A stretch of DNA of 64,000 bases from contig NZ_CP132507.1 of assembly GCF_032191775.1 (NCBI RefSeq), positions 893,001 to 957,000 on the forward strand, in the 5' to 3' direction. The notes below the pieces were generated by a model, which saw only the letters and a list, made by a program, of their open reading frames with translations, made no database searches and was not told the DNA's origin. Both the position numbers and the translations under genes were made by a program. The DNA is from Rhodoferax mekongensis (lineage in GTDB: Bacteria > Pseudomonadota > Gammaproteobacteria > Burkholderiales > Burkholderiaceae_C). This document shows, in pieces, positions 21,054 to 47,246 of the stretch (position 1 is the first letter of the stretch; every line of letters begins with the position of its first letter).

Positions 21054-21482
21054 ATGGCATTCGGCCGCTTGGAACGCCCGTCCGGCGCGCAGCCGATGAG
21101 CGACATCAACATGACGCCGCTGATTGACGTGATGCTGGTCTTGCTGGTGATCTTCATCATTACTGCTCCCCTGATGGTGAGCGCTGTGAAGGTGGATTTG
21201 CCTCAGGCGCAGGGTACGCAAGCGGTGGATGCTCCCAAATTTATAGCGATCACCATTGACCCTGCAGGGCAGACCTATGTGAACGATGCGCCCATGGACA
21301 AGCCCGCTTTGGCCAATGCTTTGGCCGACGCTGCCAAACGCAACCCGAATACCGAAGTCCGACTGCGTGCTGACTCCACCGTGCCGTACGGCCGCGTGGT
21401 GGAAGTCATGGGTTTGGCTCAAAAAGCGGGCTTGAGCCAGATCGGATTTGTAGCCGAACCTGAGGCGTCCGCCTCCCCCTGA
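21054..21482 (+). CDS. exbD: ExbD/TolR-type transport energiser
   Basis: A 142-residue protein with a short cytoplasmic start, one membrane helix and a periplasmic domain. The sequence [20 protein letters not shown] is the family signature, with the proton-binding aspartate in PLIDVML. Its ATG touches the exbB stop with no gap. A 74-bp space with no clear terminator separates it from leuS. Confidence 0.94.
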
Positions 21483-21556
21483 ACCCCGCGCGCAGTGCAA
21501 CGCCTAAAATCGCACCAAGCCTCTCTTCACGGCAGCGTGACCGCTGCCCATTCCCC

Positions 21557-24325
21557 ATGCAAGACAAGTACCAGCACCTCGACGTAGAACAAGCCGCGCA
21601 AGCCCATTGGGCACAGCCTTTGTGGAATGGCGATACCGCCTACCGTGTCACCGAAAACGCCGTGGGCGTGGACGGCAAGCCCAAGAAGAAGTTCTACGCC
21701 TGCTCCATGCTGCCGTACCCCAGCGGCAAGCTGCACATGGGCCATGTGCGCAACTACACCATCAACGACATGCTGGCCCGCTACCTGCGCATGAACGGCC
21801 ACAACGTGCTCATGCCCATGGGCTGGGACGCCTTCGGCTTGCCTGCCGAAAACGCGGCACTCAAGAACAAGGTGCCCCCTGCCAAGTGGACCTACGAGAA
21901 CATCGCCTACATGAAGGGCCAAATGCAGGCCATGGGCCTGGCCATCGACTGGAGCCGTGAAGTCGCCACCTGCGATCCCGATTACTACAAATGGAACCAG
22001 TGGTTGTTCCTGAAGATGCTGGAAAAAGGCATCGCCTACCGTAAGACCCAAGTGGTGAACTGGGACCCGGTGGACCAGACCGTGCTGGCCAATGAGCAGG
22101 TGATTGACGGCAAGGGCTGGCGCACCGGTGCGGTGGTGGAGAAGCGCGAGATCCCCGGCTACTACCTCAAGATCACCGACTACGCGCAGGAACTGCTGGA
22201 CCATGTGCAAATGGGCAACGACAAGGCCACGCTCACCGGCTGGCCCGACCGTGTGCGCCTGATGCAGGAGAACTGGATCGGTAAGTCCGAAGGCGTGCGC
22301 TTTGCGTTCACCCATGACATCAAGGATTCGACGGGTGCCTTGATCGGTGATGGCCGCATGTACGTGTTCACCACCCGTGCCGATACCGTGATGGGCGTGA
22401 CCTTCTGCGCTGTGGCGCCTGAGCACCCCTTGGCCGCGCACGCCGCATCCACCAACCCCGCTCTGGCGGCCTTCATTGAAGAATGCAAAACCGGCGGCAC
22501 GACAGAAGCCGAGTTGGCCACGCAAGAGAAGAAGGGCCTGAACACCGGCTTGTTCCTGACCCATCCGCTGACCGGCGCCCGGGTGCCGGTGTGGGTCGGC
22601 AACTATGTTCTGATGGGCTATGGCGACGGCGCCGTCATGGGCGTACCTGCGCACGACGAGCGCGACTTTGCGTTTGCCAAGAAGTACGGCATCGAGATCA
22701 AGCAGGTCGTCTCCGCCGAGGGCGAAACTTTCTCGCTGGAGTCTTGGGCTGATTGGTATGGCGACAAGCAGCGCGCCGTGACGGTGAACTCCGGCAAATA
22801 CGACGGCCTAGCCTACAAGGCTGCGGTGGATGCCGTGGCTACAGACCTGGCTGCCAAAGGCTTGGGCGAGAAAAAGACCACTTGGCGCCTCCGCGACTGG
22901 GGCGTGAGCCGCCAGCGTTACTGGGGCACACCCATTCCCATCATCCATTGTGAGGAGCACGGCGCCGTGCCGGTGCCTGAAAAAGACCTGCCCGTAGTGC
23001 TGCCGCAAGACTGCGTGCCCGATGGCTCCGGCAACCCGCTGCACAAGCATGAAGGATTCCACGCCGGCGTGGTCTGCCCGGTGTGCGGCAAGCCCGCCCG
23101 CCGAGAGACCGACACCATGGACACCTTTGTGGACTCGTCCTGGTACTTCATGCGTTATTGCGATCCGAAGAACCCGGACGCCATGGTGGCAGGCGGTACT
23201 GACTACTGGATGCGGGACCAGAATGCCGCTACCGGCGGCAGCGGCATGGACCAATACATAGGGGGTATCGAACACGCCATCCTGCACTTGCTGTACGCCC
23301 GTTTCTGGACCAAGGTCATGCGCGACCTGGGCCTGGTGAAGGTGGACGAGCCCTTCACCAAGCTGCTGACCCAGGGCATGGTGCTCAACCATATCTACAG
23401 CCGCCGCACTGCCAAGGGCGGCAAGGAATACTTCTGGCCCAAGGACGTGGAGCACGTTCATGACGCCGCCGGTAAGGTGGTGGGTGCCAAGCTGATCGCC
23501 GAAGTGGATAGTGCCGATGGCTTGTTGCCGGTGGGCACTGCCATCGACTACGAGGGTGTGGGCACCATGTCCAAGTCCAAGAACAACGGTGTGGATCCGC
23601 AGGAGCTGATTGCCAAGTACGGCGCAGACACCGCCCGTATCTACACCATGTTCACCTCGCCGCCCGAGGCTACGCTGGAGTGGAACGACTCGGCGGTGGA
23701 GGGTAGCTACCGCTTCCTGCGCCGTGTCTGGAACTTTGGCTACAAGCTGTCTGCTATGGATTCTGTAGCTGCTCGCGCAAGCGTGGCGGGCGCCAAGAGC
23801 CTGAATGATGTGGAATTCGGCAAGGAAGCCAAGGCGCTCCGGCTGGAAATGCACACCGTGCTCAAGCAGGTGGACTTTGATTACCAGCGCATGCAATACA
23901 ACACGGTGGTGTCGGGTGCGATGAAGATGATCAACGCGCTGGAAGGCTTCAAGGCTATGGACAGCGCCGGTGCACAAGTGGCTCTGATCGAAGGTTTCGG
24001 CATCCTGCTGCGTTGCCTGTACCCCGCTACGCCACACCTCTCGCACGCCTTGTGGTCCGAGCTGGGCTATGCCTCCGCCCTCGGCGATCTGCTGGATGCG
24101 CCTTGGCCACAGGTGGACGCGGCGGCCCTGGTGCAAGACGAGATCGAACTGGTGCTGCAAATCAACGGCAAGCTGCGCGGTGCCGTGCGCGTGCCGGCAG
24201 GCGCTGACAAGGCCGCCATCGAAGCCGCTGCGCTGGCCAGTGAGGTGTTTATGAGCCATGCTGCAGGCGCGCCCGCCAAGAAGGTCGTCGTGGTGCCGGG
24301 CCGCTTGGTCAACATCGTCGTCTGA
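21557..24325 (+). CDS. leuS: Leucyl-tRNA synthetase
   Basis: A 922-residue class I synthetase, somewhat longer than the E. coli enzyme. The HIGH-type motif is [10 protein letters not shown] near residue 55 and the KMSKS-type motif is TMSKSKNNG. The editing domain lies between them. At about 733-750, just after WNFGYKL, a dispersed repeat is read in frame as [16 protein letters not shown]. It replaces a region between the catalytic and anticodon-binding domains that varies between species. lptE follows after 5 bp. Confidence 0.98.
23753..23806 (+). repeat. Dispersed repeat, family A, copy 3 (in frame inside leuS)
   Basis: GCTATG, then GTAGCTGCTCGCGCA, then GGGCGCCAAGAGCC. It is read in frame as [15 protein letters not shown] and lies wholly within leuS. 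Confidence 0.8.
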
Positions 24326-35115: not shown

Positions 35116-35238
35116 GCCCCCACGCTCCACCGCTGTGCGGGTCGCTGCCCCCCCGAGGGGGCGTGCTCACCTTGGGGCGGCCCGGCGGTTAAGCCTGACC
35201 CCCACGCTCCGCCACTGCGCGGGGCGCTGCCCGCATCG
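35116..35238. repeat. GC-rich dispersed repeat, family B, copies 1 and 2
   Basis: 35116-35188 contains CCCCCACGCTCCACCGCTG, then the hairpin CCCCCCCGAGGGGG, then CTTGGGGCGGCCCGGCGG. 35198-35238 repeats the first half (CCCCCACGCTCCGCCACTGC). The pair fills the gap between kup and benE. The full-length copy closely matches 46880-46952. Confidence 0.8.
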
Positions 35239-35252
35239 CTGACAATGCGGGC

Positions 35253-36470
35253 ATGCGATTTTTCAAAGACCTGAGTCTCTCGGCGTTTACCGCCGGATTT
35301 GTGGCGGTGCTGGTGGGCTTTACCAGCTCCGTGGCGATCGTCTTCCAAGCAGCGCTGGCCTTGGGCGCAACGCCCGAGATGGTCGCCTCCTGGATGTGGG
35401 CGCTAGGCATCGGCATGGGGCTGTGCTCTTTGCTTCCGTCCTTGTGGTGGAAGAAGCCTGTCATGGTCGCCTGGAGTACGCCGGGCGCAGCCGTACTGGC
35501 CACCGCCGCCACCGCAGGCGGTTTCAACATGGCCGATGGTGTGGGTGCTTTCATGTTGTGTGCCGTACTCATCACGGTGGCCGGTGCTACAGGCTGGTTT
35601 GAACGGGTGATGAACCGCATCCCCCTGGCGCTGGCCTCCGCCTTGCTCGCCGGTGTGCTGGCCCGCTTCGGCCTGCAAGGCTTTGCCGCAGCGCAAACGG
35701 CCTTGCCCTTGGTGGCTCTGATGTTCGCGACCTACTTGCTGGGCAAGCGTTTTTTGCCCCGCTATGCAGTTCCGCTCACTTTGTTGATTGCTATTATTTA
35801 TGTAGCTGCTCGCGCACAGTTCACGGGCGCTACCATTCATTTTGGCTTGACGATGCCAGTTTTCGTGGCGCCGGCCTTTTCACTGGCAGCGTTCATCAGC
35901 ATGTCCTTGCCGCTATTTGTCGTGACCATGGCCTCGCAGAACTTGCCCGGTGTGGCCGCCATCCAGGCTGCCGGTTTTGCCGACCGCCATGCACAGGGGG
36001 GTGGCGCAGGCATTCCTATCTCCAAAGTCATCACCTTGACTGGCTTAACGACGCTGGTGCTGGCACCTTTCGGAGCCTTCGCTTTGAATCTGAGTGCCAT
36101 TACGGCGGCCATCTGCATGGGGCCGGAAGCCCACGCGAATCCTGCGCGCCGCTATACGGCAGCGGCTTCATGCGGAGCCATTTATGTGGTGATTGGTCTT
36201 TTTGGCTCCGCAATCACCGGCATATTGACTGCGTTCCCCAAAGAACTGGTGGCTGCGATTGCCGGTTTGGCCCTGCTGGGCACCATTGGCGGCGCGATGC
36301 ACGCAGCCCTGCAGGACGAGCGCAATCGCGAAGCCGCCCTCATCACTTTTCTGGTCACGCTCAGCGGAGTGGTAATCGCCGGCATCGGCTCAGCCTTTTG
36401 GGGCGTGGTGGCAGGGGTGTTGGCGCTTTTGGTGCAACATGGTGCCCGCGCTCCGCAAGCCAAGAACTGA
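35253..36470 (+). CDS. benE: BenE-family benzoate/proton symporter-like transporter
   Basis: A 405-residue inner-membrane transporter with about 11-12 helices. VGFTSSVAIVFQAALALGA and WWKKPVMVAWSTPGAAVLAT are typical BenE/YdcO sequence. A dispersed repeat is read in frame at about 179-197 as AIIYVAARAQFTGAT, forming part of a membrane segment and loop. No benzoate-degradation gene is near, so the substrate is uncertain. It follows a pair of GC-rich repeats and interrupts the kup-gshB neighbourhood. Confidence 0.9.
   Translation: MRFFKDLSLSAFTAGFVAVLVGFTSSVAIVFQAALALGATPEMVASWMWALGIGMGLCSLLPSLWWKKPVMVAWSTPGAAVLATAATAGGFNMADGVGAFMLCAVLITVAGATGWFERVMNRIPLALASALLAGVLARFGLQGFAAAQTALPLVALMFATYLLGKRFLPRYAVPLTLLIAIIYVAARAQFTGATIHFGLTMPVFVAPAFSLAAFISMSLPLFVVTMASQNLPGVAAIQAAGFADRHAQGGGAGIPISKVITLTGLTTLVLAPFGAFALNLSAITAAICMGPEAHANPARRYTAAASCGAIYVVIGLFGSAITGILTAFPKELVAAIAGLALLGTIGGAMHAALQDERNREAALITFLVTLSGVVIAGIGSAFWGVVAGVLALLVQHGARAPQAKN
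35790..35842 (+). repeat. Dispersed repeat, family A, copy 4 (in frame inside benE)
   Basis: GCTATT, then GTAGCTGCTCGCGCA, then GGGCGCTA. It shares 16 consecutive bases with the leuS copy and is read in the same frame (VAARA). Confidence 0.8.
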
Positions 36471-46115: not shown

Positions 46116-47246
46116 TCAGACGATCAGCGGGTCGTGGTCCATGGCCTCGATCTGGTCTTCCAGCATCTGGATTTGGCCCTTCCAGTAGTCGCTGGTGCCG
46201 AACCACGGAAAGTTGGCCGGAAAGGTCGGGTCGCTCCAGCGCCGGGCCAGCCAGGCGCTGTAGTGGATCAGGCGCAGGGTGCGCAGCGGCTCGATCAGCG
46301 CCAGCTCGGCCCGGTCGAACTCTCGGAATTGCTCGTAGCCGTCCACCAGCATGCCGAGCTGGTGGGTTTGCTGATGCCGGTCGCCGCTGAGCAGCATCCA
46401 GAGGTCTTGCACCGCCGGACCGGTGCGCGCGTCGTCCAGGTCCACAAAATGCGGGCCGGGGCCCGCGCTGACAGCCACGTCAGTCGGCGTCCAGAGAATG
46501 TTGCCGGGGTGGCAGTCGCCGTGCAGTCGCAGCTGGCGTATGCCGCTGGTATTGGACTTGTTTTGGCCGGTGGCGCCCGCCATATCTGCGCGAGCAGCTA
46601 TCAAATCAATAGCGTGCTGGCAGCGCTCACTCCACAGGGTTTGCACATCCAGCGGCACCATGTTGTTGGCCAGCAGCCACTGCATGGGCTCGATGGCAAA
46701 GGTTTGCACATCCAAGGCCGGGCGGTGCACAAACGGGCGCTTGGCACCCACGGCATGGATGCGCGCCAGAAAGCGGCCAATCCATTCCAGCACCTCGCCA
46801 TCGTCCAGCTCGGGCGGGCGGCCACCACGGCGGGGGCTCACCGAGAAGGCAAAGCCGCCGAAGTGGTGAAGAGAACGTGGCCCCCACGCTCCACCGCTGC
46901 GCGGGTCGCTGCCCCCCGAGGGGGCGAATTCGCCTTGGGGCGGCCCGGCGGCGAATTGACCACTAAGCACCATCGGCCCCACCACAGGAATTTCGGCGGC
47001 CATCAGTTCCGCCGCAAAGTCGTGCTCCTCCTGGATCTGGGCATCGCTCCAGCGCTCAGGCCGGTAGAACTTGGCGACCACCGGGGCGCCGTCTTCCAGC
47101 TGCACTTGGTAGACGCGGTTTTCGTAGGACGAGAGAGCGGTCAGGCGCCCGTCGCCACGCAGGCCTACGCTGTCCAGGGCGTCAAGCACCAGGTCGGGAG
47201 TGAGGGATTCAAAGGGGTGGAGGGCGGAGCCCGCGGTGCTGTGCAT
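46116..47246 (-). CDS. srkA: Stress-response Ser/Thr kinase SrkA (RdoA/YihE) with two repeat insertions
   Basis: A 376-residue cytoplasmic kinase of the APH/choline-kinase fold. LSSYENRVYQVQLEDG, KFYRPERW, LHGDCHPGNILW (catalytic D244) and FVDLDDARTGPAVQDLWMLL match E. coli SrkA, which is about 50 residues shorter. The extra length lies mostly at two points. Residues about 97-125 (FAAGPPQGEFAPSGG and onward) are the translation of a GC-rich repeat. Residues about 211-232 (HAIDLIAARADMAGATG) are a family A repeat. A third small expansion lies at 254-265. I start at MHSTAGSAL (47246); upstream in-frame codons run into the divergent regulator's promoter. Confidence 0.92.
   Translation of the reverse strand: MHSTAGSALHPFESLTPDLVLDALDSVGLRGDGRLTALSSYENRVYQVQLEDGAPVVAKFYRPERWSDAQIQEEHDFAAELMAAEIPVVGPMVLSGQFAAGPPQGEFAPSGGSDPRSGGAWGPRSLHHFGGFAFSVSPRRGGRPPELDDGEVLEWIGRFLARIHAVGAKRPFVHRPALDVQTFAIEPMQWLLANNMVPLDVQTLWSERCQHAIDLIAARADMAGATGQNKSNTSGIRQLRLHGDCHPGNILWTPTDVAVSAGPGPHFVDLDDARTGPAVQDLWMLLSGDRHQQTHQLGMLVDGYEQFREFDRAELALIEPLRTLRLIHYSAWLARRWSDPTFPANFPWFGTSDYWKGQIQMLEDQIEAMDHDPLIV
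46560..46614 (-). repeat. Dispersed repeat, family A, copy 6 (in frame inside srkA)
   Basis: On the minus strand: GCTATT, then ATAGCTGCTCGCGCA, then GGGCGCCA. It is translated as AIDLIAARADMAGAT, the same frame as the leuS and benE copies. Confidence 0.8.
46880..46952. repeat. GC-rich dispersed repeat, family B, copy 3 (inside srkA)
   Basis: CCCCCACGCTCCACCGCTG, then CCCCCCGAGGGGGCG, then CCTTGGGGCGGCCCGGCGG. It is nearly identical to 35116-35188 and lies wholly inside the srkA coding region without breaking the frame. Confidence 0.85.

Follow-up and report, generated by a model that had tools for sequence, protein, structure and literature searches.

Two families of dispersed palindromic repeats lie in frame within the stress kinase gene srkA of Rhodoferax mekongensis

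REP/REPIN sequences are short palindromic elements, mostly extragenic and present in high copy number, that are mobilised by RAYT transposases. The Rickettsia palindromic elements (RPE) comprise several families found in frame within unrelated protein genes (Ogata 2000, 2002, as covered in the review PMC10969869), and the best-known examples of repeats inserted in frame into core genes come from Rickettsia. Closer to the organism considered here, a 2017 study (PMC5217627) reported two spaced motifs, one in Polaromonas naphthalenivorans (ATAGCT(N)22CAAAAG) and the other in Acidovorax ebreus (GCTTAT(N)5AAGCG), with 125 and 114 copies, respectively, located near gene ends and with 14% and 4% of copies in genes, and identified Rhodoferax ferrireducens as the genome with the most motif pairs. 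These motifs were presented only as potentially novel, their role was left unexplained, and the account did not extend to insertion into proteins in frame, to the age of the elements or to their structure. The srkA gene of Rhodoferax mekongensis, analysed within a 64,000-nucleotide stretch of its chromosome (the window; Table 1), carries members of two such families, termed A and B. Most probably each of these short palindromic families has contributed one copy, B recently and A in the distant past, and the kinase, which is still under selection, tolerates both without being served by them.

Table 1. Positions in the window of srkA, its repeats and further repeat copies
Feature	Position	Strand	Basis
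srkA / yihE-type stress kinase, 376 aa	46116..47246	-	PRK11768, PDB 1zyl, Foldseek
Insert of 81 nt net (residues 98-124, FAAGPPQGEFAPSGGSDPRSGGAWGPR), lacking in most orthologs	46875..46955	-	Ortholog alignment, empty sites
Palindromic element of family B, with stem I variable, stem II GC and the 3' end (GGAGCGTGGGGG) conserved	46881..46957	-	Aligned genome copies
B stem I: arm AATTCGCC (46957-46950) paired with GGCGAATT (46934-46927)	46927..46957	-	Covariation
B stem II GCCCCCTCGGGGGGC	46911..46925	-	Almost invariant; 96.6% of cells paired
Family A element, core GCTATTGATTTGATAGCTGCTCGCGCA (46587-46613), read AIDLIAARADMAGATGQNK	46557..46613	-	Genome pattern copies, ortholog conservation
In-frame A element of leuS (21464-24322 +), translated as 16 residues	23753..23800	+	TIGR00396, 997 bits
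In-frame A element of benE (35199-36467 +), translated as AIIYVAARAQFTGATI	35790..35840	+	TIGR00843, 377 bits
Two adjacent B copies (35116-35188, 35198-35242), near gene end	35116..35242	+	Genome copies

The product of the gene is confidently SrkA/YihE by equivalog, motif and fold. It scores 474 bits against the NCBIfam equivalog PRK11768 (cut-off 194), contains the APH Pfam domain, and matches PDB 1zyl both in sequence (E 1e-86) and as the best Foldseek hit of its predicted model (TM 0.91 by target length); its closest named relatives are from Rhodoferax. The catalytic HGD and DLDD are intact within the motifs LHGDCHPGN and DLDDA, as the original prediction had described, and its suggestion that the protein may still work is supported. 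Comparison of this genome (G000) with its sister G058 gave a dS of 0.156 and a dN of 0.018, values that indicate a functional gene, and the resulting dN/dS of about 0.11 points to purifying selection; this ratio and the HMM scores rule out a pseudogene. Relative to E. coli YihE the protein has 48 additional residues, contributed by B (~27), the surroundings of A (~12) and a later non-repeat loop (9). Most of the excess coincides with the repeats, as the original prediction had it. The net gain at the A site, however, amounts to only about 8–12 residues against non-Comamonadaceae orthologs, and nearly all Rhodoferax orthologs share it. An AlphaFold model built with a 62-sequence alignment has a mean pLDDT of 86, falling below 50 at residues 98–121 and 225–229; the B insert is thus predicted to be a disordered loop, and the modelled helix 199–217 ends in the A core. 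Whether both inserts are surface loops had been posed as a question for structure prediction; the model predicts loops for the B insert and for the tail of A.

Both segments of srkA have copies genome-wide, as had been proposed. The B segment finds about 35 further significant copies in the 3.89 Mb single-contig genome (best E 1.7e-24), the family numbering at least 35–40 among the matches listed, and the A segment finds several; a family A pattern allowing up to three mismatches occurs at least 392 times, compared with 0 for a reversed control pattern. A chance match is excluded by these copies. The B element is about 75–85 nt in size, and its aligned copies share a 5' hairpin with the loop GCCGGGCCGCCCCAA and variable eight-base arms, followed by a CCCCC-GGGGG hairpin. 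Across 29 copies, all eight arm pairs of stem I have changes on both sides, with a covariation score of 0.409 against 0.141 (sd 0.017) when shuffled and at most 0.132 in slid controls. Almost all of these changes preserve Watson-Crick pairing, and G-U pairs are very scarce, as would be expected if the palindrome acts as DNA and not as RNA. The structure rests on covariation, since single copies of B or A do not fold with unusual energy when compared with shuffles; a known RNA family is rejected, Rfam having no match in the window. The window also opens with a 300-base direct repeat, 100% identical, at 1–300 and 757–1056.

Family B is usually intergenic: 19 of 33 copies lie, on the antisense side, behind a stop codon, mostly at a distance of 0–18 nt and in one orientation. 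It is spread family-wide, with a match in 70 of 80 other genera sampled. Of 38 genomes of the genus with good assemblies, 28 contain the B peptide, in several instances inside a long open frame. In other genera B also forms tandem arrays that repeat about every 84 nt (e.g., G179:C28:272513-273006).

Orthologs of srkA, drawn from 80 named loci and from the 95 genomes of the genus that gave a match, locate the arrival of B in this gene. The 27-residue insert is present only in this genome and in G058, G087 and G003, and the site is empty in most relatives. An assembly error is ruled out by the identical insert in G058, whose gene differs by 4.7% overall; around the insert the two genes are identical over a run of 254 nt (nt 147–401), a pattern compatible with, and suggesting, recent recombination between these lineages. 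G087 shares both B junctions with this genome, and the lineages between them in the tree are empty. In G003 the left junction differs from that of G000, which makes an independent insertion probable. The flanks there follow the lineage of G003 itself, leaving transfer of G000-like flanks together with the insert unsupported, and the B core is identical at 65 of 66 bases in a gene that is roughly 20% different. A further genome, G032, retains CAACTCGCCGCCG...GGGCCACACACTCTG at the site, in what looks like the remnant of an in-frame internal deletion of the insert. By these comparisons, B in srkA is a real insertion, recent relative to A.

That in-frame insertion should be unusual, as the original prediction held, finds no support here: both families recur within other genes, and at least eight B copies in all lie in genes. 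On the evidence of family HMMs and of the coding score to either side, B copies lie in frame inside radA, relA, uvrA, glpK, a copper-type P-type ATPase gene and a GST gene. Further copies form fused ends of cysW, of metX and of two genes for branched-chain-type ABC ATPases. The two relA copies (L178:777-3197) are in opposite orientations, at aa 148–174 and, antisense, at aa 374–402. Clean empty sites are seen for relA in G058, G091, G066, G001 and others, and G033 and G059 have site 1 only; besides these two and G000, relatives with a readable site have neither insert. The radA site is filled only in G000 and G059, and cleanly empty in most relatives. Net B inserts at the compared sites measure 81, 81, 84 and 84 nt. 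Family A copies are found in frame in leuS, benE, thiL, polA, nadD, maf and putA, and 6 of the 36 copies in a sample chosen regardless of context are in genes. At least two genes, srkA and uvrA, combine the families, the latter (L184:2-2707) with a sense B at aa 212–236 and an antisense A at aa 282–300. The kinase gene is one clear case among many core genes with in-frame repeats, and not an exceptional one.

The A element, about 50 nt long, has its srkA core at residues 212–220. A-like DNA occupies this site in 29 of 30 Rhodoferax orthologs and in 20 of 74 others (a set that includes further Rhodoferax as well as Giesbergeria, Comamonas, Xylophilus and Tibeticola loci), compared with 12 of 882 control segments. 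Some orthologs hold what are descendants at the protein level, such as ALDLIAASANQQSAEGHF, and in high-GC relatives the peptide appears kept as codons drift, for example ALDLMAPAADGMSAAGHFGL in L068. The event is an old one, and the orthologs counted carry the element or a decayed form of it. That the two families are comparable independent insertions into this gene, as had been envisaged, is not supported: the insertion of B is genuine, but A is genus-wide, with decayed forms in other genera. Likewise, the reservation that relatives might have equally long, similar segments at the same sites does not apply to B and largely applies to A as an event of this genome. The loop at the A site contains long non-repeat low-complexity expansions in two other Burkholderiales (L100:523-1710, L101:2929-4104), and thus tolerates added length.

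Within Rhodoferax the A core shows half the synonymous variation expected. In 28 srkA genes its synonymous difference is 0.20, against an expectation of 0.40 (rank 2 of 336 windows, p 0.0003), and the fixed codons GCT, ATA, GCT and GCA coincide with the invariant bases of the family, variation falling in the family's variable loop. Either selection on the DNA or gene conversion is a possible cause. The former would follow if copies within genes kept a DNA-level function, for instance as a protein-binding or chromosome-organising site, a reading that we consider possible though doubtful and that the nearly exclusive Watson-Crick pairing of B stem I, as in a DNA palindrome, would also suit. Reinsertion or gene conversion from other copies of the family gives the same pattern, however, the catalytic LHGD stretch of srkA is an equally low synonymous window, and G052 (L021) keeps the peptide AIDLIAARA with changed codons.

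It is less likely still that the A-like stretch of srkA is native coding sequence that happens to resemble the repeat. The repeat-less orthologs L055 and L059 already have an AL.LIA helix at this position, and the net length gain is small; yet the match spans about 50 nt, including GGGCGC and GGCCAAAA parts beyond that helix, and is present in about half of the orthologs as against 1.4% of control segments. Adaptation of the kinase by the inserts, e.g., as interaction or regulatory loops, is very improbable: G003 does have a nearly identical B core in the same loop despite its different left junction and divergent gene, but the same peptide appears in the unrelated radA, relA, uvrA and ATPase, is absent in most relatives, and is disordered in the predicted model.

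On the favoured reading, insertion of tolerated elements proceeds as follows. B normally sits a few bases past stop codons and occasionally lands inside genes. It is free of stop codons in most frames, and a copy with a net length that is a multiple of three can therefore persist as an additional loop, probably without structure; in srkA it added 27 residues at the turn of an N-lobe beta-hairpin. The insertion of A into the loop that precedes the catalytic LHGD strand dates back to some ancestor in the family, and A has since become a fixed part of the protein. Spread would most likely combine transposition of some kind, homologous recombination between species and selection for frame, and the patchy distribution of B (relA site 1 in G000, G033 and G059 but not in G058 or G091) requires precise loss or recombination. 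Tolerance would be the cause of persistence, the inserted peptides having no specific role. Comparison of filled and empty sites at srkA, relA sites 1 and 2 and radA revealed no evident target-site duplication, the feature sought as the mark of a MITE, and no transposase in the genome could be linked to either family. A more ambitious proposal, put forward only tentatively, is that A and B might form an active, coding-compatible palindromic system of Burkholderiaceae that repeatedly enters the same core-gene loops in frame by a dedicated mechanism, with the DNA selected even where it is translated.

Set against the described systems, A and B resemble REP/REPIN in being short, palindromic, mostly extragenic and of high copy number, and the genome has one Y1 (Y1_Tnp, RAYT-like) transposase gene (L242, G000:C1:1452570-1452809), upstream of a glutamate synthase-like gene. 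They differ in that this gene is not flanked by a good A copy or by B, there being no B nearby and only a weak A-like stretch after its stop, with about 5 mismatches in 20 fixed bases. The motifs of PMC5217627 are probably family A, given their similar core; beyond that study, a literature search on the A and B sequences and on in-frame repeats in this group returned nothing, and no described coding insertion. The availability of many close genomes, clean filled and empty sites, two family ages, and copies in relA, radA, uvrA, leuS and polA makes the origin, spread, tolerance and permanence of such inserts directly testable, and serves as a warning that non-native loops will be met wherever genomes of this family are annotated or their protein structures predicted. 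By behaviour, and as far as published descriptions go, the likeness is to RPE: dispersed palindromic repeats, in frame in several unrelated genes, with a recognisable peptide and with empty orthologs. The differences are a free-living betaproteobacterial host, elements of about 50 and 80 nt rather than about 150 bp (PMC10969869), and a mostly intergenic location of A and B copies, with B hugging stop codons and having copy-specific, covarying arms. In-frame palindromic repeats are thus already known from Rickettsia, whose elements appear by analogy to be the closest known kind to the A and B coding insertions, and coding insertion in this bacterial group, a free-living case, appears to be new.
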